Assembly: GCF_026427355.1 (NCBI RefSeq)
Contig: NZ_CP102665.1
Coordinates: forward strand, 496,001 to 560,000
Direction: 5' to 3'
DNA length: 64,000 nt
DNA from: Sphingobium sp. JS3065
GTDB taxonomy: Bacteria; Pseudomonadota; Alphaproteobacteria; Sphingomonadales; Sphingomonadaceae
Of the stretch, positions 2,998-32,441 are shown piece after piece (position 1 is the stretch's first letter; every line of letters starts with the position of its first letter). Below the pieces are notes generated by a model. That model saw only the letters and a list, made by a program, of their open reading frames with translations. It did no database searches and had not been told where the DNA came from. A program made the position numbers and the translations under genes.

Positions 2998-4647
2998 ATG
3001 ACGCAAAAACGCATCGCCGTCCTGCTGGTGGAGGATAATCCGGTCTATTCGCGGCTGATCCAGAAGCTGCTGAGCCGGTCCGACAATCCGGTGTTCGAAA
3101 CCGTGCTGGCGGGCACGCTGGAACAGGCGCTGGAACGGCTGGCGGTGGGCGGGATCGACGTCGTCCTGCTGGACCTGATGCTGCCTGACAGCACGGCGCT
3201 CGACACCTTCTACCGCGTCCGGGCGCATGACCTGCGCATCCCCGTCATCGTCCAGAGCGCGATGGACGATGTGGGCCTGGCCAGCAAGGCGGTGGAAGGC
3301 GGGGCGGAGGATTACCTGCTGAAGGACGGCATCAACAGCGCGACGCTGATCCGGTCGATCCATTATGCCATGGAACGCACCCATGCGCGGGGGGCGGAAT
3401 GGTCTTCGGCCATGCTCCACCTGGCGCAGCAGCAATTTCTGAAGGCCGCCCATATCGCCGGGCTGGACCCCAATATCCGGCAACGCCTGCTCTTCCCCGA
3501 ACGGACGCAGATCGCCGCCCTGCCCTTCAAGCGCGACGGCATCGATCAGGTCGAGACCGTCTTCGCCTATCGGGTGCAGCATCTGCTGACCATGGGTCCG
3601 ACCAAGGGCGGGCTGCGCTATCATCCCGACGTCAGCCTGGGGGAGGTCGCCGCTCTCTCCATGTGGATGACCTGGAAATGTGCCCTGGCGAAACTGCCCT
3701 TCGGCGGGGCCAAGGGCGGGGTAAGGGTCGATCCCGCCGCGCTCAGCAAGGACGAGCTGGAACGGCTTACCCGCCGCTATACGTCGGAATTCATCGGCAT
3801 GATCGGCCCCGACAAGGATATTCCCGCGCCCGACATGGGAACCGACGCGCAGGTCATGGCCTGGATCATGGACACCTATAGCGAGCATGTCGGCTATTCC
3901 GTGCCGTCAGTGGTGACGGGTAAGCCGGTCGTGCTGGGCGGATCGCTGGGCCGGCATGAGGCGACCGGGCGGGGCCTTGCCTATCTGGTGAGCGAAACCT
4001 GCCGCCAGATCGGTCTTGACCTCAACGGCGCGACCGCCGTGGTGCAGGGGTTCGGCAATGTCGGCATGCACACCGCCACCTTCCTGGCCGAAGCCGGAGC
4101 GAAGATCATCGGCATCAGCGATGTCAGCGTGGCGCTGCACAATCCCAAGGGCCTGCCGATCGACCGGCTGAAGGACCATGTGCGCCAGCACAAGCAACTG
4201 TTCGGTTGCCCCTATGGCGAGATCATTCCCAGCCGCGACCTGCTGGAACTGCGCTGCGACATATTGGCGCCATGCGCCTTGCAGAACCAGATCACCGCGG
4301 AAAATAGCGCGCGGATCGATTGCCGGATCGTGGCGGAGGGCGCCAATGGGCCGACGACGCTGGAGGCCGACGACATGCTGCAGGCGCGCGGCATCATCGT
4401 GCTGCCCGACATCCTCGCCAATGCGGGCGGCGTCATCGTGTCCTATTTCGAATGGGTTCAGGGGCTTCAGAACCTGACCTGGCCGCTGGAGGAGATCAAC
4501 ATGCGCATGCGCGACATATTGACCGACGCGCTCGCCCGCACGCAGCGCCGCGCCCAGGCGGAGAAGGTCGACCTGCGCACCGCCGCCATGATCGAGGCGT
4601 TAAGCCGCGTCGGCGCGGCCAATCATCTGCGCGGGCTGTTTCCATGA
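2998..4647 (+). CDS. Response-regulator receiver fused to Glu/Leu/Phe/Val dehydrogenase
   Basis: A 549-residue two-part protein. Residues 1-125 form a receiver domain with acidic pocket VEDN, phospho-acceptor Asp59 (VVLLDLMLP) and conserved Lys109 (YLLKDG). After a short linker, residues 140-549 are a complete NAD(P)-dependent amino-acid dehydrogenase of the glutamate dehydrogenase family. It has the substrate-site motif TKGGLRYHP, catalytic Lys239 in LPFGGAKGGV, Asp279 in IPAPDMGTD, and a Rossmann GxGxxG (GFGNVG, 351-356). The family reversibly deaminates glutamate or branched/aromatic amino acids to 2-oxo acids. The frame is continuous across the junction, so this is one polypeptide. It sits directly after a hybrid kinase and an Hpt gene, which suggests phosphorylation controls the enzyme; that is inference. 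The 3' end overlaps the convergent GAF kinase by 25 bases. Confidence 0.9.
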   Translation: MTQKRIAVLLVEDNPVYSRLIQKLLSRSDNPVFETVLAGTLEQALERLAVGGIDVVLLDLMLPDSTALDTFYRVRAHDLRIPVIVQSAMDDVGLASKAVEGGAEDYLLKDGINSATLIRSIHYAMERTHARGAEWSSAMLHLAQQQFLKAAHIAGLDPNIRQRLLFPERTQIAALPFKRDGIDQVETVFAYRVQHLLTMGPTKGGLRYHPDVSLGEVAALSMWMTWKCALAKLPFGGAKGGVRVDPAALSKDELERLTRRYTSEFIGMIGPDKDIPAPDMGTDAQVMAWIMDTYSEHVGYSVPSVVTGKPVVLGGSLGRHEATGRGLAYLVSETCRQIGLDLNGATAVVQGFGNVGMHTATFLAEAGAKIIGISDVSVALHNPKGLPIDRLKDHVRQHKQLFGCPYGEIIPSRDLLELRCDILAPCALQNQITAENSARIDCRIVAEGANGPTTLEADDMLQARGIIVLPDILANAGGVIVSYFEWVQGLQNLTWPLEEINMRMRDILTDALARTQRRAQAEKVDLRTAAMIEALSRVGAANHLRGLFP

Positions 4648-6389
4648 GGGGGCGGAATGCTCCCGGAAACAGGGCCTGCTTCAACCACCTGAGCGCGCGC
4701 GGCAGCGATGCACGCCTGAAGATGATTGTGCCGGAATGGCTTCGACAGGCGCGTGATGTCCGGCGCGATCAGGTCGACCCCTTCATAGCCCGATATGATC
4801 AGCAGGGCGATGTCCGGATGGTCGGCGCGCAGCCGCAGCGCCAGTTCCACCCCGGTCATGCCCGGCATGATGTGGTCGGTGATCAGGATATCGGGCCGGC
4901 CGCCGGACTCGATCATCTCCAGGGCGCTTTCGGCGCGGTCGGTGTCGACCACCTCATAGCCCATGTCCATCAGCATTTCGCGGGTGCTGTTGCGGACCAG
5001 GTCGTTGTCGTCCACCAGCAGCACCTTGCCCGAACGCGCCGCGCCGCCCATTTCCACGGGCGGCGGATCGACCTTCGCGCTGGGAGCGCTTTCGACCGGG
5101 AGCCAGAGCCGGATGCTGGTGCCCCTGCCCACGGCGCTGTCGATTTCCACCATGCCGCCCAACTGACCGGCAAGGCCATGGACCATGGACAGGCCCAGCC
5201 CCGTGCCGTGACCGGACGGCTTGGTCGTGAAGAATGGCTCCATCGCCGCCGCCCTGACTGCCGGAGCCATGCCGGTGCCGCTGTCGGTGACGGTGAGGCA
5301 GACATATTGGCCGGGCGGCAGCGTGGCGGGCAGACGGCTTTGCCGGGCTTCCGCCGCTATGCCGAGCGCGCCGCCGCCGGACATGGCGTCGCGGCTGTTG
5401 ACGGCAAGGTTGAGGAGCGCGACCTCCAGTTGATGGGCGTCTGCGCGCACCGGGGGCAGCATCGGCTGGAGATCGACGGACAGCGCGATCCGCGGTCCTA
5501 AAGTGCTGGCCAGCAGCGCCTGCATCCCGCCGAGCAGATCGGACAGATCCACCGCCTTGACCGCCAGCGGCTGGCGGCGGGCGAACGTCAGCAGCCGTTG
5601 GACCAGCGTCTGGGCGCTTTCCGCCGCCTGCATGGCGATGGTCGCGTGCCGTTCGATGGATTCGGGCGTCCGCTTTCCCGACAGGATCAGGTCCAGCCCC
5701 CCGACGATAGGCATCAGCAGATTGTTGAAATCATGGGCGACATGGCCGGTCAACTGGCCCAGCATGTCCAGCTTCTGGACCTGGCGCAGGCTGTCCTGCG
5801 ACCGCTCCAGTTCCGTGGTGCGTTCCCGGACGCGATGTTCGAGCTGGCCGTTCAGCGCCTCCAGCGAGGCGAAGAGCCGGCCATTTTCCAGCGCGGTGGA
5901 GGCGGCGCGGGCCAGCGCCTCCAGCAGGCCGATCTCATTGTCGGTGGGCTGGCCGAATTCGGACCAATAGGCGCCGACGGCGGCGATGGGATTGATCCGG
6001 CCGATGGGCACCATCAGCATGGAGCGGACGAAGGTGGTGCGATACGCCTCTACCGGCACGCGCGGATCGTCGAAGACATCCGGGATGACGGCCGTCTGAT
6101 GGTTTTCCATGGCCCAGCCCGACACGCAACTGGCGGCCGGAAAGCGCTGGCCCGCCCAGAGCGGCTCCATCGAATCCTCGGCGATATAATGGCAATGGTC
6201 CTCGTCTCGCAGGACGACCGTTATGCCGTCCGCCCCCACGGCGCGGCGGGCGAAGGCGCGCAGCACATGGGTCACCGCCTCCAGCGACCGCGCGCCCGCC
6301 AGCGCCTCCATAGCTTCGGCGGCGATGCTCCACCTTGCCACCAGCGCCTTTTGTTCAGCGCTTCGTTCGCTCACCAGTTTCTTGTCCAT
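4623..6389 (-). CDS. GAF-domain hybrid sensor histidine kinase
   Basis: A 588-residue soluble kinase without membrane segments. The order is a GAF domain (about 20-175), a coiled coil (176-205), a HisKA region with phospho-acceptor His219 in GHVAHDFNNLL, HATPase (about 320-435, DSGTGM and GHGTGLGLSM) and a C-terminal receiver (about 455-570, phospho-acceptor Asp in ILITDHIMPGM). The HDFNNLL-type box is common in cytoplasmic kinases that sense redox state, light or small molecules through GAF. The start is the ATG at 6389. It is convergent with the receiver-dehydrogenase gene and their ends overlap, so it probably belongs to the same signalling locus. Its ligand is unknown. Confidence 0.9.
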   Translation of the reverse strand: MDKKLVSERSAEQKALVARWSIAAEAMEALAGARSLEAVTHVLRAFARRAVGADGITVVLRDEDHCHYIAEDSMEPLWAGQRFPAASCVSGWAMENHQTAVIPDVFDDPRVPVEAYRTTFVRSMLMVPIGRINPIAAVGAYWSEFGQPTDNEIGLLEALARAASTALENGRLFASLEALNGQLEHRVRERTTELERSQDSLRQVQKLDMLGQLTGHVAHDFNNLLMPIVGGLDLILSGKRTPESIERHATIAMQAAESAQTLVQRLLTFARRQPLAVKAVDLSDLLGGMQALLASTLGPRIALSVDLQPMLPPVRADAHQLEVALLNLAVNSRDAMSGGGALGIAAEARQSRLPATLPPGQYVCLTVTDSGTGMAPAVRAAAMEPFFTTKPSGHGTGLGLSMVHGLAGQLGGMVEIDSAVGRGTSIRLWLPVESAPSAKVDPPPVEMGGAARSGKVLLVDDNDLVRNSTREMLMDMGYEVVDTDRAESALEMIESGGRPDILITDHIMPGMTGVELALRLRADHPDIALLIISGYEGVDLIAPDITRLSKPFRHNHLQACIAAARAQVVEAGPVSGSIPPPHGNSPRR

Positions 6390-6742: not shown

Positions 6743-8008
6743 ATAGGATAGCGCCTGTTCTCATCAAATATGCCCTTTGTCAGAAGCCCGGCAAAGCGCG
6801 ACACCGCCAGTTCGAGCGGCTGGTCGGCGGCCCAGCCGCGCACGTCATAGGCCGAATTGATGGTCGACATGATGATATGCCCGGCAATCGCAGGGTCGAT
6901 CAGGCGCACGGACCCCTCCCGCATGCCGTCCAGGAGAGCGCCCCCAGCCAGAGAGCCTCCCGGTTGCTGAGTTCGAGCGCCTCGGCCCGTAGCGCAGCCG
7001 GCATGGCCTGCAACGCGGTCGACCGCAGGAGCGGATGGTCGCTCGCGAACTGGAGGACGAGGACGGACGCAATCGCATTTTCCAGCCGTTGCCATCGCGT
7101 CCCCCCTCTCGCGTCCACGGCCCTCTGAAGGCGGGTCAGGCGGCGGTAGCTTTCCCGGAAACATTCCAGGATGAGATCGTCCTTCGCCTCATTATGATGG
7201 TAGAAGCTGCCCTTCGTCAGGTTCATCTCGCGCATGATGCGGTCGACAGACGCGCCCTTATAGCCATGTTCGTTGATGAGCCTGGTCGCGATCCGCATGA
7301 AGGGCGATTGAAGCGGCGCCGCGTCGAGCGCCTCCTCCAGCGTGAGGGGGATGGCCGCCGCTTCCAGGTCTTTTGCGCCGATGCCCTCCCGCAAAATGTC
7401 GAACATGCGGTGGCGGACGCTGTCGAAATCCCCGAAAGCATAATGGGGCAGCCAGAAGGTCGCCCAGAACAGGGATTCGTTGAGAAGCTGCGCCCGCGCC
7501 GTCAGCACGCATTCCGCTCCGGATCGTCGCTCGCCCCGAAGAATCCGCGGACATCCCGGAACAATGCCTGATATTGGGCGATCAGGGGCAGGCGATATTC
7601 CTCGTCCAGCGCCCGGATTTCCGAAAAGTTCGCCAGCGGGCGTATTTCCTTCCGCAGGGATCGGGCCGCATGGTCGAAGAAGAGGGCCAGATATTTCTCG
7701 ACGCGCGCTTGCGGGGTCGGTTCGGCGTCCGCTTCCCGCACCATGGCGTGGAGCCGCGCTATGCTGTCCTCCAGCACCGCGGCGGCCAGCAGTTCCTTGT
7801 ATCGGAAATAGTAGATGACGCTCGTCGTCTTGAGCGAAATGGCCTGGGCGACCTCCTGAAAGGTCATGCCCGTCACGCCCCGCTCATTGAGCAGGACCGT
7901 CGCGACATCCAATATCCTTTGCTTCTTGTCCTCGAAGCGGGTGCGCCGCGTCCCTCCCGCCGCTTCGGTCACCAACGGGGCATCGGAGGGGGCGGGTCCA
8001 TTGGCCAT
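6727..8008 (-). pseudogene. Tandem TetR/AcrR regulator broken by two frameshifts
   Basis: Three consecutive minus-strand frames together make one TetR protein of about 427 residues with two DNA-binding domains. Piece 1 (8008-7502) has a TetR helix-turn-helix (TFQEVAQAISLKTTSVIYYF). Piece 2 (7508-6900) continues with the first ligand region and a second helix-turn-helix (SVDRIMREMNLTKGSFYHH). Piece 3 (about 6935-6727) supplies the C-terminus (GSVRLIDPAIAGH). Each switch, near 7505 and near 6940, is explained by loss of one base; the second lies in a run of five G where six would restore WLGGALLDG. It would have been an acyl-CoA or xenobiotic-responsive repressor. Either the gene is inactivated or both sites are sequencing errors. 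Confidence 0.75.
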
Positions 8009-22334: not shown

Positions 22335-25300
22335 ATGACCGACCAGCCCCCCTTCAGCGCCTTTGCGCCGCCCATCCGCCCTCAATCCCCGCTTCGGTGC
22401 GCGATCACCGCCGCTTATCGCCGCGACGAGGCCCTGTGCATGGCGCCGTTGCTGGATGCCGCATCCCTGCCGACGCCTGACCGCGCCGCGATAAGGGAGA
22501 CGGCCCGCAAGCTGGTGACTGGGCTTCGCGCCAACCGCAAGGGCGGCGGTGTCGAGGGACTTGTCCAGGAATATTCGCTCTCCAGCGAAGAGGGCGTCGC
22601 GCTGATGTGCCTGGCCGAAGCGCTGCTGCGCATTCCCGATGATGCGACCCGCGATGCGCTGATCCGCGACAAGGTTTCCGGCGGCGACTGGGGCGCTCAT
22701 CTGGGCGAAGGCAAGTCGCTTTTCGTCAATGCCGCTACATGGGGGCTGGTCGTCACGGGCAAGCTGATCGGCAGCGTCGACGACCGGGGCCTTGGCGCGG
22801 CGCTGACCCGCCTTGTGGCGCGCGCAGGCGAACCGGTGATCCGGCGGGGCGTCGACCTGGCGATGCGCATGATGGGCGAACAGTTCGTCACCGGGGAGAC
22901 GATCCAGGAAGCGCTCAAGCGCGCCCGGACCCTGGAGGCCAAGGGTTTCCGCTACAGCTACGACATGCTGGGCGAGGCGGCGACGACCGCTGCGGACGCC
23001 GACCGCTATTATGCCGATTATGAGCGCGCCATCCACGCAATCGGCAGGGCGTCGGACGGGCGCGGCGTCTATGAGGGGCCGGGCATCTCGATCAAGCTGT
23101 CCGCGCTGCACCCCCGCTATGTGCGCGCCCAGGCGGAACGGGTGATGGGCGAACTGCTGCCCCGCGTCCGGCAATTGGCCATCCTTGCCAAGGGTTACGA
23201 TATCGGCATCAACATCGATGCCGAAGAGATGGACCGGCTTGAACTGTCGCTCGACCTGCTGGAAAGCCTGGCGACGGACGTGGAACTGGCCGGGTGGGAC
23301 GGGCTGGGTTTCGTCGTCCAGGGATATGGAAAGCGTTGTCCCTTCGTCATCGACTGGATCATCGATCTTGCCCGGCGCGCCAAGCGCCGCATCATGGTCC
23401 GGCTGGTGAAGGGTGCCTATTGGGACGCGGAAATCAAGCGCGCCCAGGTGGACGGGCTGGCCGACTTCCCCGTCTATACGCGCAAGGTGCATACCGACGT
23501 CGCCTATATCGCCTGCGCCAGGAAGCTGCTCGCCGCGCCCGATGCGGTCTTCCCGCAATTCGCGACGCACAACGCCCAGACGCTGGCGACCATCCACCAC
23601 CTCGCCGGGCCGGACTTCGCCGTCCGCCAATATGAATTCCAGTGCCTGCACGGCATGGGAGAACCCCTTTATGAACAGGTCGTCGGCAAGGAGAAGCTGG
23701 ACCGCCCCTGCCGCATCTACGCGCCGGTCGGGACGCATGAGACGCTGCTCGCCTATCTCGTCCGGCGTCTGCTCGAAAACGGCGCCAATTCCTCTTTCGT
23801 CCATCGGATCGCCGATCCGGCGACATCGGTCGAAGAACTGATCGCCGATCCGGTCGACGTCGTCCGCGCCATGCCCGATCCCGGGGCGCGGCATGACCGG
23901 ATCGCCCTGCCCGGCGATCTTTATCCCGATCGCCGCAATTCGACGGGATTCGACCTGAGCGACGAAACCACTCTTGCCGCTTTGTCCAAAGCCCTGCGCG
24001 AAAGCGCCGCGATTCGCTGGTCGGCGGCCCCCACTTTCGGCACGGGGGAGGAACGGCCCATAGTAAACCCGGCGGATCATCGCGACACAGTAGGCACGGT
24101 GGCGGAACTGGCGGTGGAGGATGCAGCCGGTCTCGTGTCGCGCGCCGCCGCTTCCGATTGGGGCGGCCGATCCGTGCAGGAACGCGCCGCCATCCTTGAT
24201 CGCGCCGCCGACGCGATGCAGGCGCGCATGCCGATCCTGCTCGGCCTGCTGATGCGCGAGGCGGGAAAGTCGCTTCCCAACGCCATTGCGGAAGTGCGCG
24301 AGGCTATCGATTTCCTTCGCTATTATGCCGCGCAGGCCCGCGCCAATTTCGGAGCCGGACAAACCCCTCTCGGCCCGATTATGTGCATCAGCCCGTGGAA
24401 TTTCCCGTTGGCGATCTTCACCGGCCAGGTCGCAGCCGCGCTGGTCGCGGGCAATCCGGTACTCGCAAAGCCTGCGAGCATGACGCCATTGATCGCGGCA
24501 GAAGGGGTGCGCCTGCTTCATGAGGCTGGCGTGCCTCAAGACGCGCTCCAACTGACACCCGGCGGCGGCGCCCTCGGCAGCGCCCTGGTGGCGGCGCCGG
24601 AAACAGCGGGCGTCATGTTCACAGGGTCGACCGCGGTGGCCCGGCTGATTCAGGGTCAACTCGCGAAGCGGCTGTCGCCGGCGGGCCGGCCCATCCCCTT
24701 GATCGCTGAGACGGGCGGACAGAATGCGATGATCGTGGACTCTTCGGCGCTGGCCGAGCAGGTCGTCGCGGATGTGCTGGTCTCAGCCTTCGACAGCGCG
24801 GGCCAGCGCTGCTCTGCGCTCCGCGTCCTCTGCCTTCAGGAAGATGTCGCGGACCGCATTCTCACGATGCTCAAGGGAGCCTTGCGCGAACAGCGCATCG
24901 GCCGCACCGATGCTATAAAGGTCGACATCGGCCCGGTCATCAGCCAGGACGCCAAGGCCGGGATCGACCGGCACATCGCCGCCATGCGCCAGCGCGGCGC
25001 GCGGGTGGATCAGCATGCCCTGCCCGGCGAAGCGGTGCACGGCACCTTCGTCGCGCCGACGATCATAGAGATTGAGGATATATCCGAACTGGAGCAGGAG
25101 GTTTTCGGACCGGTCCTCCATATCGTCCGCTTCCGCCGCGAACGGTTGGGCGCGCTGATCGATTCGATCAACGCGACCGGCTATGGCCTGACATTCGGCC
25201 TGCACACCCGGCTGGATGAGACGATCGCCCATGTCACCTCGCGGGTGAAGGCGGGCAATCTCTATGTGAACCGGAACATGATCGGCGCCATCGTCGGCGT

Positions 25301-25940
25301 CCAGCCCTTCGGCGGGCGCGGACTGTCCGGGACGGGACCGAAGGCGGGCGGGCCGCTCTACCTCAACCGGCTGGTCGCGCTGCCCCCCATATTCGGTTCG
25401 CGGTTGCGGCATCTCGAATCGCCCATCCATGATTTCGCCGACTGGCTGGAGGAGAAGAGGGAATTTGGCAGCGCCGCGAAGGCGCGCGGTTACGCCGCCG
25501 CCTCCGCCCTGGGCGCGGAGATCATTCTTCCCGGGCCGGTAGGCGAAAGCAATCTCTACAGCCTCCATCCCCGTGGCCTGGTGCTGATGAAGCCCCGGAC
25601 CCGCCATGGCCTGTTCGAGCAGATGGCCGCGGTGCTTGCCACCGGGAACAGGGGCGTGGTGGGCGAAGCGCTGCCCGCAGATTTGCCGCCCAATGTCGCC
25701 GCCGCGTTCGCCGAACTGCCCGATGGCCCCTATTCCGTCGCGCTGGTGGAGGGAGGCGGGACGGCCGTCGCCGAAATCGTCGCGCAGGTTGCGACGATAG
25801 CCGGCCCGATCGTTTCGGTCCATGCGGCCGAACAGGATCAACCGCTCGCCTATCATTGCGATTGGCTGCTGGAAGAGGTTTCGACCTCCATCAACACGAC
25901 AGCGGCCGGAGGCAATGCCAGCCTGATGATGATCGGCTGA
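22335..25940 (+). CDS. putA: Bifunctional proline dehydrogenase / P5C dehydrogenase PutA
   Basis: A 1201-residue enzyme that oxidises proline to glutamate with FAD and NAD. There is no N-terminal ribbon-helix-helix, so it is not its own repressor. The proline dehydrogenase barrel runs from about residue 130 to 490 (GPGISIKLSALHPRY, IMVRLVKGAYWD, RIYAPVGTHE). The aldehyde dehydrogenase domain runs from about 560 to 1010, with ETGGQNAMIVDSSAL and the catalytic Cys in DSAGQRCSALR. The final 190 residues (from about 1015) are the extra C-terminal domain of the longer PutA class. Divergent from an Lrp-type regulator. The substrate channelled between sites is P5C/glutamate semialdehyde. Confidence 0.96.
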   Translation: MTDQPPFSAFAPPIRPQSPLRCAITAAYRRDEALCMAPLLDAASLPTPDRAAIRETARKLVTGLRANRKGGGVEGLVQEYSLSSEEGVALMCLAEALLRIPDDATRDALIRDKVSGGDWGAHLGEGKSLFVNAATWGLVVTGKLIGSVDDRGLGAALTRLVARAGEPVIRRGVDLAMRMMGEQFVTGETIQEALKRARTLEAKGFRYSYDMLGEAATTAADADRYYADYERAIHAIGRASDGRGVYEGPGISIKLSALHPRYVRAQAERVMGELLPRVRQLAILAKGYDIGINIDAEEMDRLELSLDLLESLATDVELAGWDGLGFVVQGYGKRCPFVIDWIIDLARRAKRRIMVRLVKGAYWDAEIKRAQVDGLADFPVYTRKVHTDVAYIACARKLLAAPDAVFPQFATHNAQTLATIHHLAGPDFAVRQYEFQCLHGMGEPLYEQVVGKEKLDRPCRIYAPVGTHETLLAYLVRRLLENGANSSFVHRIADPATSVEELIADPVDVVRAMPDPGARHDRIALPGDLYPDRRNSTGFDLSDETTLAALSKALRESAAIRWSAAPTFGTGEERPIVNPADHRDTVGTVAELAVEDAAGLVSRAAASDWGGRSVQERAAILDRAADAMQARMPILLGLLMREAGKSLPNAIAEVREAIDFLRYYAAQARANFGAGQTPLGPIMCISPWNFPLAIFTGQVAAALVAGNPVLAKPASMTPLIAAEGVRLLHEAGVPQDALQLTPGGGALGSALVAAPETAGVMFTGSTAVARLIQGQLAKRLSPAGRPIPLIAETGGQNAMIVDSSALAEQVVADVLVSAFDSAGQRCSALRVLCLQEDVADRILTMLKGALREQRIGRTDAIKVDIGPVISQDAKAGIDRHIAAMRQRGARVDQHALPGEAVHGTFVAPTIIEIEDISELEQEVFGPVLHIVRFRRERLGALIDSINATGYGLTFGLHTRLDETIAHVTSRVKAGNLYVNRNMIGAIVGVQPFGGRGLSGTGPKAGGPLYLNRLVALPPIFGSRLRHLESPIHDFADWLEEKREFGSAAKARGYAAASALGAEIILPGPVGESNLYSLHPRGLVLMKPRTRHGLFEQMAAVLATGNRGVVGEALPADLPPNVAAAFAELPDGPYSVALVEGGGTAVAEIVAQVATIAGPIVSVHAAEQDQPLAYHCDWLLEEVSTSINTTAAGGNASLMMIG

Positions 25941-31115: not shown

Positions 31116-32441
31116 ATGGGATTTGAAGATCATCCGACCGTCCGCGCACTACGGGAACGAGGAGAATCCCAGTCGACGGAGATGGTCTCGGCCGCCCTGC
31201 TGAAGGAGATCGCGCTCGAATGCGGGGCCGCCGATGTCGGGCTGATCGAAATCACCCGCCCCGCTATCGCCCCGCAAATTCCCTATATCCAGAAAGTCTA
31301 CGCCAAGACGAAGACCCTGATGGCCATCGTCTGCCGGATGAACGAATTGCCGGTGCGATCCCAGACGCGGTCGGTGGCGAACGAGGAATTTCACGCCACC
31401 TACGACCATGTGAATGAGGCGTGCCGGGAAATCGTGCGCGCCCTCACCAAACGCGGCATTCCGGCATGCAACGCCATCGCGGCCTTCCCCATGGAGCTGG
31501 ACCAGCCCAAGATCATGATGGTGCAGCACAAGCCCGTCGCGGTCGAGGCCGGGCTGGGCCATATGGGCGTCCACCGCAGCGTCATCCATCCGAAATTCGG
31601 CAGCTTCATATTGCTGGGCACGGTGCTGCTGGGCGTCGAGGTCGACGAATATGACCACCCGGTCGACTATAATCCGTGCCTGGGCTGCAAGCTGTGCGTC
31701 GCCGCCTGCCCCGTGGGCGCGATCAAGGCGGACGGCGCGTTCGACTTCATGACCTGCTACACGCACAATTACCATGATTTCACCGGCAACTTCCTGAACT
31801 GGGTCGAAAATGTCGTGGAGGCCAAGGACAAGAAGGATTATCGCGAACGCATCCAGCCCAGCGAGACCCAACTCATCTGGCAGTCCCTCTCGTTCAAGCC
31901 GCAATATAAGGCCGCCTATTGCATATCGGTCTGCCCGGCGGGCGAGGAGGTGATTTCCCCCTTCCTTCGGGATCGCAAGACCTATGTCGAGGATGTGGTG
32001 AAGCCGCTGCTCGACAAGGAGGAGGTGCTGTACGTCATCAAGGGCACCGACGCCGACGAGAGCGCGCCGCGCAAATTCCCGCACAAGCGGATCAAGCATG
32101 TGCGGGCGGGCCGGATCACGACCAGCCTGGGCGGCCATCTTTTCTCCCTGCGGCTCAGCTTCCAGCGGGGCGCGGCCCGCTCGCTCGACCTGACGAGCCA
32201 CTGGACCTTCGAGGACAAGAAGGATCATCATGCGACGATCCACGTCGCCGGCAAATTGCTGGAGATCGATGACCGGCGCCATGTCGGGGACGCCGACTTC
32301 AAGGTCTGGGTGAAGTCGGACCGCTGGTTCGACTATCTCAATCTGCTGTGCGAACTGGACGATCTGTTCGCGGAAGGCTCCATCCGCCTGGATGGCGACC
32401 GGGAAAAGCTGGACGCCTATCTCGCCTGCTTCCCCTTCTGA
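31116..32441 (+). CDS. 4Fe-4S protein with reductive-dehalogenase/QueG-like N-terminus
   Basis: A 441-residue protein of uncertain function. Residues 20-180 resemble the corrinoid-binding fold of epoxyqueuosine reductases and reductive dehalogenases. A ferredoxin motif CLGCKLCVAACP follows (about 188-200), and a partial second Cys set occurs in YCISVCPAG. The last 125 residues (from about 315, AGRITTSLGGHLFSLRLSFQ) look like an SCP2-type sterol/lipid-binding domain. No signal peptide, so probably cytoplasmic. The gene stands alone, downstream of an AT-rich leader. I cannot name the reaction: a cobalamin- or Fe-S-dependent reduction of a hydrophobic substrate is a guess. Confidence 0.75.
   Translation: MGFEDHPTVRALRERGESQSTEMVSAALLKEIALECGAADVGLIEITRPAIAPQIPYIQKVYAKTKTLMAIVCRMNELPVRSQTRSVANEEFHATYDHVNEACREIVRALTKRGIPACNAIAAFPMELDQPKIMMVQHKPVAVEAGLGHMGVHRSVIHPKFGSFILLGTVLLGVEVDEYDHPVDYNPCLGCKLCVAACPVGAIKADGAFDFMTCYTHNYHDFTGNFLNWVENVVEAKDKKDYRERIQPSETQLIWQSLSFKPQYKAAYCISVCPAGEEVISPFLRDRKTYVEDVVKPLLDKEEVLYVIKGTDADESAPRKFPHKRIKHVRAGRITTSLGGHLFSLRLSFQRGAARSLDLTSHWTFEDKKDHHATIHVAGKLLEIDDRRHVGDADFKVWVKSDRWFDYLNLLCELDDLFAEGSIRLDGDREKLDAYLACFPF

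Follow-up and report, generated by a model that had tools for sequence, protein, structure and literature searches.

The usual targets of two-component systems are transcription and second messengers. On the signaling side, we take the tripartite hybrid-kinase phosphorelays of the ArcB/BarA type to be the nearest counterpart of the locus described here; on the enzyme side, GdhA is presumably the regulatory subunit of the Thermus thermophilus glutamate dehydrogenase (GDH), and, to our knowledge, Thermus GDH has neither a receiver nor a phosphorelay. Table 1 of the 2009 P2CS paper (PMC2716373) lists GDH (EC 1.4.1.3) as "Probable" among two-component enzymes, with no protein named there. Section 14 of PMC5847659 treats response regulators joined to "standard metabolic enzymes" as a recognized class known in bacteria, and the same section describes the archaeal fusions of a receiver (REC) to metabolic enzymes as narrow in distribution. 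Passages of PMC2864759 and a word search of PMC3018481 gave nothing on a receiver fused to a GDH (REC-GDH), and no functional study of a REC-GDH was found among the matches listed in the open-licence literature. The statement in the first-pass annotation that no characterized example is known agrees with this search but needs to be qualified by the P2CS entry and by the enzyme-output class recognized in the section cited.

The locus lies in a 64,000-nt stretch of the Sphingobium sp. JS3065 genome (the window), which holds the following features:

1 to 2607, (+) strand: hybrid histidine kinase, CHASE-HisKA-HATPase-REC-REC; N-terminus cut by the window edge, 987-aa frame in the host genome.
2604 to 2981, (+) strand: stand-alone Hpt protein, 125 aa; H-box AHSLKGSA, phospho-His H56 at codon 2769–2771.
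2998 to 4647, (+) strand: REC-GDH gene; ATG start, 549 aa, no internal stop, stop codon included.
3019 to 3330, (+) strand: receiver domain, aa 8–111; D59 at codon 3172–3174, K109 at codon 3322–3324.
3331 to 3495, (+) strand: receiver helix alpha5, linker, and first GDH helices, aa 112–166.
3496 to 3882, (+) strand: ELFV_dehydrog_N, i.e., GDH domain I, aa 167–295; K203, K227, K239, and D279.
3937 to 4635, (+) strand: ELFV_dehydrog, i.e., NAD(P)-binding domain and C-terminus, aa 314–546; GFGNVG and S482.
4623 to 6389, (−) strand: convergent GAF-HisKA-HATPase-REC kinase; its 3′ end overlaps REC-GDH by 25 bp.

Analysis of the REC-GDH protein confirmed the earlier description of one continuous 549-codon frame that runs from an ATG without an internal stop and joins a receiver complete with Asp59 and Lys109 to a dehydrogenase complete with Lys239, Asp279, and GxGxxG. 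Specifically, all three Pfam matches exceeded their cut-offs: Response_reg at aa 8–111 (E-value of 2.3e-16; 60.4 bits, cut-off 30.2), ELFV_dehydrog_N at aa 167–295 (1.2e-50; 171 bits, cut-off 25.3), and ELFV_dehydrog at aa 314–546 (1.9e-74; 250.8 bits, cut-off 23.4). The receiver has the whole set of expected residues, i.e., the acidic pair E12/D13, D59, S87, and K109. Residues 139–549 align along the Thermotoga maritima GDH 1b26 (residues 6–416 of 416; E-value of 1.5e-124), and K203, K227, K239, D279, and S482 are all present, with identical letters in that alignment, together with the Rossmann motif GFGNVG at aa 351–356. We take the five single residues to be the equivalents of K89, K113, K125, D165, and S380 of clostridial GDH, with substrate or catalytic roles.

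Among the best 60 of 172 structure chains matched, GDHs occupied the top (best, 419.5 bits) and phenylalanine and leucine dehydrogenases came last (74 bits), which ruled out a generic Leu/Phe/Val dehydrogenase; judged by sequence, the enzyme half is nearer to glutamate than to Leu/Phe/Val dehydrogenases. None of the best 25 of 72 NCBIfam families reached its curated cut-off, the best GDH equivalog (GluDhGdhB_Halo) scoring 464.8 bits against a cut-off of 620, and the protein is therefore GDH-like and outside the curated GDH subtypes among those 25. Two further frames of this kind are present in the host genome, one GDH-like and 464 aa long, the other 1580 aa long with a match to the large-GDH family PF05088; REC-GDH is not the sole GDH in the window genus.

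The earlier reading of the locus recognized the fusion but overlooked its phosphorelay wiring. Directly upstream, the Hpt gene shares 4 bp with the kinase gene and stops 16 bp short of REC-GDH, and the two encode HisKA, HATPase_c, receivers, and Hpt with canonical H-boxes, i.e., a full hybrid-kinase phosphorelay set that likely includes the cognate kinase for the REC-GDH receiver. The convergent GAF kinase on the other side is present beside REC-GDH in only two of five congeners (the window's own included); we therefore rejected it as a member of the unit, and it probably lies outside the relay. In all five congeners, the gene immediately preceding the kinase (L114:10983–11810, shortly before the window starts) encodes a protein that looks Sel1-repeat-like, with no similarity match at REC-GDH loci beyond these five; this protein might act outside the cytoplasm together with the CHASE sensor. 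Also upstream of the window, L114:4036–4827 and L114:3368–3916 resemble by eye an autoinducer synthase and a LuxR-type regulator. Within the window, two overlapping minus-strand ORFs at 6900–8008, each with a TetR_N match, may be a tandem TetR regulator or a split gene, and a 441-aa frame at 31116–32438 has matches for 4Fe-4S binding together with, oddly, a weak Alkyl_sulf_C match slightly below its cut-off. PutA, which converts proline to glutamate, is encoded at 22335–25937 on the same contig, ~18 kb from REC-GDH, with no evidence for a functional link.

We compared 36 REC-GDH loci (the window and 35 further loci) and found a HisKA-HATPase kinase frame with one or more receivers no more than 900 bp from REC-GDH in 28 of them. 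All 28 kinase loci also have an Hpt, either fused to the kinase or in a separate frame beside the kinase or between it and REC-GDH, and all 28 kinases carry the H-box SHE/SHD-IRTP. Two receiver hits were found in 27 of the kinase frames, and one in L166, where the Hpt is on the opposite strand; at L034, the kinase is convergent to REC-GDH. A kinase is absent for at least 7 kb on each side at L035, L037, L041, and L168, all of which fall within or next to the planctomycete portion of the tree. At another four loci (L039, L163, L164, and L170), a contig end prevents a call, which leaves 32 informative loci; at L039, the start of a CHASE protein is visible before the contig ends. As a control, we used 71 receiver-less GDH loci from the contig scan (L042 to L113 without L044; phyla unmatched to the fused loci, 26 loci with less than 5 kb on one side) and found any kinase within 5 kb at 3 of the 71, and at 3 of the 45 with a full 5 kb available on each side. 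No receiver or Hpt hits were detected in these three kinase frames.

Eight kinases scanned with Pfam combine a constant core with varied sensor parts, i.e., CHASE-PAS, PAS_7 x2, GAF-PAS, PAS, dCache-HAMP-PAS, and, in one case, no named sensor domain, an arrangement that we read as different inputs feeding one putative output. Among 14 representatives (near-copies collapsed, L156 and L165 left out), GDH distances correlate with those of the kinase core (r = 0.57) and of Hpt (r = 0.63; Mantel p = 0.0002), a correlation to which shared species history can contribute. A wider conserved metabolic neighborhood was rejected, as no non-relay neighbor family is common to more than 6 of the 36 loci (tally of families common to at least four loci).

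Within the genus, the fusion occurs in 5 of 37 genomes, host included. Nine fused loci were present among the best 80 contig matches and belong to a gammaproteobacterial MAG, an unassigned bacterial MAG, Halomonas, Gemmatimonadota, Planctomycetota, Latescibacterota, Myxococcales, and Lujinxingia. Sinorhizobium/Ensifer plasmids gave at least 9 records with 100% query coverage and at least 10 with 80% or more; four of the nine full-coverage records were taken into the analysis. Matches were found in at least 1 of 396 genomes of the order sample, at least 1 of 385 of the class sample, at least 5 of 151 of the Halomonas-family sample, at least 6 of 294 of the Planctomycetota sample, and at least 19 of 235 of the phylum sample around Lujinxingia (in 8 of the 19, the match starts at or beyond query residue 122, so that the receiver is missing); these counts are lower bounds, since E-values were strict and few candidates were scored per genome. 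Among phage records, none of 22 matches covers 80% of the query, and the receiver is missing in the best 5 of the 22. REC-GDH is a sparse accessory trait. It was the only GDH found in genomes G810, G811, and G812 by searches with REC-GDH and with PF05088 (the latter found none) and may be the only one they have; the lack of another GDH among these finds favors a catalytic role there.

The GDH-domain tree holds 70 rows, namely, 34 fused (the cut genes L163 and L164 were left out) and 36 receiver-less, the latter being our choice from 82 (118 rows minus 36 fused). Fused rows form one group (SH-aLRT of 99) that also includes the receiver-less L042, L043, and L045. The full tree needs three fusion-state changes, only one of which is forced by strongly supported branches; one fusion gain with two losses (L042; L043 with L045) would be the simplest reading, though not a proven one. 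The window clade is sister to a gammaproteobacterial MAG and then to a planctomycete, and the Sinorhizobium copies group with those of Halomonas, a pattern most naturally read as horizontal transfer.

The spacing between K109 and Q146 is 38 residues in all 36 fused rows, as well as in 27 of 27 rows of a second alignment (A2, without the cut genes L163, L164, and L170, the near-copies L118 and L162, and four plasmid rows), which points to a strict length constraint on the receiver-GDH joint. In the receiver, D59 and K109 are invariant (36/36), E12 and D13 are present in all 35 rows covering them, and position 87 is T or S throughout (36/36). Conservation in the GDH part of the fused rows is 36/36 for K239, 35/36 for K227, 34/36 for K203 and D279, and 34/35 for S482. 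An AlphaFold2 model from 36 aligned sequences (pLDDT of 88.1, pTM of 0.81) shows a receiver-like fold and a GDH fold, with 1b26 as the best Foldseek match (TM of 0.93 over the target, 49% identity). All 50 Foldseek matches listed are GDHs or their close kin under other names and, at only 392–427 residues each, have no room for a receiver. The junction (aa 121–140) has a pLDDT of 69–71, and alpha5 (aa 114–130) is split from the GDH helix (aa 138–154) by a break at aa 131–137; the relative placement of the two halves is therefore unreadable from the model.

Two fused rows depart from the catalytic pattern: L156 (L156:7869–9506, Halomonas family) has K203L, K227Q, D279G, and S482A, and L165 (L165:7437–9104, phylum sample around Lujinxingia) has K203L and D279G. 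Work on clostridial GDH has shown that the equivalents of D279 and K203 are essential and substrate-binding. Both rows retain the receiver, the 38-residue spacing, the kinase, and Hpt, so that catalysis is possibly not the sole job of the output domain. L172, a 95% identical copy of L156 in a second Halomonas-family genome, likewise keeps the receiver and lacks the catalytic residues. For the L156/L172 pair, dN/dS is higher in the GDH part (0.13) than in the receiver (0.08), whereas three pairs in the window genus show the opposite order (0.05–0.08 for the GDH part and 0.10–0.19 for the receiver). This purifying selection on the GDH part, measured on one pair with 25 non-synonymous changes, indicates that a function is probably maintained. 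We do not trust the joint branch of L156 and L165 in the full tree, since long branches attract. Placed singly (with a midpoint root for drawing only), L165 groups with L159, also from that phylum sample (SH-aLRT of 95), and L156 takes no supported position, its nearest rows by path being those of Sinorhizobium/Halomonas; catalysis was thus likely lost twice, although this is not proven. Among the genomes that carry these pseudo-GDHs, the large PF05088 GDH was found in G848 and G824 and not in G973.

With moderate confidence, we propose that REC-GDH is the output protein of a co-encoded multistep phosphorelay that controls GDH activity; the hybrid kinase and Hpt context makes a phosphorylation-controlled GDH the likeliest reading. 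An extracytoplasmic signal sensed by the CHASE domain would lead to kinase autophosphorylation, as the domain content implies, and the kinase receiver(s) would pass the phosphate to H56 of Hpt, a step suggested by the conserved H-box and the gene order. Hpt would then presumably phosphorylate D59 of the dehydrogenase-fused receiver, and the fixed-length alpha5/linker would act through the first GDH helices to alter GDH activity or assembly. The outcome would be a fast switch of glutamate/2-oxoglutarate/ammonium interconversion with no transcription needed. The relay genes next to most of the relatives compared, which come from several phyla, suggest that bacteria carrying the cassette may act on an amino-acid enzyme itself instead of on its expression. 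In support of the phosphorelay reading are the receiver residues, the catalytic residues retained in all but two fused rows, the fixed joint, the 28 of 36 loci with a relay (against 3 of 71 receiver-less loci with any kinase), the H-box common to the 28 kinases, the varied sensors on a constant core, the distances that track one another, and the lone REC-GDH found in G810, G811, and G812. Weighing against it are L156 (with its near-copy L172) and L165, two fused rows that lack catalytic residues and retain the relay, the four planctomycete-side loci without a kinase within 7 kb, the control loci whose phyla differ from those of the fused loci, and the less confident junction of the model with its break at aa 131–137, which hides the signal path between the halves.

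Several other explanations were weighed. That two genes were joined by a frameshift or an assembly artefact has a negligible probability: the receiver-GDH joint lies in a single open frame at 36 of 36 loci from unrelated assemblies (four of the genes, L163, L164, L166, and L170, are cut elsewhere by a contig end), and the uninterrupted fusion in four congeners (89–97% identity) and in other phyla, with a whole-frame dN/dS of 0.06–0.10 in three congener pairs, excludes an artefact. The first-pass annotation had named a frameshift at the junction as one result that would overturn its reading, and the open joint at all 36 loci contradicts such a frameshift. An orphan fusion with a housekeeping GDH, whose kinase neighborhood is incidental, is very improbable; the 4 of 32 informative loci with no neighboring kinase speak for it, but the other 28, which span several phyla, do have one, and kinase distances follow GDH distances. 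It is also improbable, though less so, that the receiver merely places or assembles a constitutively active GDH, e.g., at a membrane-bound kinase or through receiver dimerization across hexamers. Receivers commonly dimerize, and the window kinase has a CHASE domain, consistent with such a role; however, strict conservation of the phosphorylation residues would then be needless, and four of the eight scanned kinases have PAS/GAF sensors without CHASE or Cache.

A further alternative, rather unlikely in our judgment, is that the GDH domain serves chiefly for sensing or interaction, responding to glutamate, 2-oxoglutarate, or NAD(P)H and adjusting the receiver or a partner protein, with catalysis secondary or absent; if so, the protein would integrate the phosphorelay with nitrogen or redox state. 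GDHs are known to moonlight as regulators (RocG/GltC and GdhZ/FtsZ), and one of the Thermus GDH subunits is regulatory. The purifying selection on the GDH part of the single L156/L172 pair fits a sensor role, as do L156 and L165 themselves, which fall apart when placed alone and lost catalytic residues yet kept the receiver, the joint length, the kinase, and Hpt. On the other hand, K203, K227, K239, and D279 (plus S482 where covered) are kept in 34 of the 36 fused rows, the GDH part of the window genus is more constrained than its receiver, and no other GDH was found in G810, G811, and G812. We also put forward, as an unlikely idea, a two-way integrator in which the GDH domain would sense glutamate/2-oxoglutarate/NAD(P)H and the receiver would read an outside signal, with some lineages having a catalysis-free pseudo-GDH response regulator that may bind a hydrophobic amino acid. 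Such a different ligand is hinted at by the K203L change, the K203 position having, we assume, a substrate role. The pseudo-GDH rows provide a natural control for telling catalysis apart from signaling.

The best reading of the sequence data is that the REC-GDH cassette is real and widely transferred, with GDH as its probable terminal output. If the phosphorelay reading is true, it would represent direct histidine-to-aspartate phosphorelay control of metabolic flux in multiple phyla, with a core nitrogen-metabolism enzyme as the last phospho-acceptor. The idea is easily testable because the genes for the kinase, Hpt, and receiver-enzyme are neighbors and GDH activity can be followed with a simple NAD(P)H assay.

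Compared with the homohexameric GDHs of the Thermotoga/Bacillus/plant type (1b26, 3k92, and 6yeh), REC-GDH has the same 410-residue fold and aligned active-site residues but adds an N-terminal receiver of ~130 residues and a conserved relay neighborhood. As in the hetero-hexameric GDH of T. thermophilus (3aoe), a GDH-fold subunit may perhaps be regulatory, as the pseudo-GDH rows suggest. By its genes, the cassette resembles the ArcB/BarA type, in which HisKA-HATPase-REC-(REC)-Hpt leads to a separate response regulator, whereas the final receiver here bears an amino-acid dehydrogenase instead of a DNA-binding domain. The arrangement of an N-terminal receiver and a C-terminal enzyme is shared with the response regulators with metabolic-enzyme output described in the section cited above. 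Unlike the archaeal fusions, which that section of PMC5847659 presents as narrow in distribution, REC-GDH extends over Pseudomonadota, Myxococcota, Planctomycetota, Gemmatimonadota, and Latescibacterota and is accompanied by a kinase-Hpt cassette.
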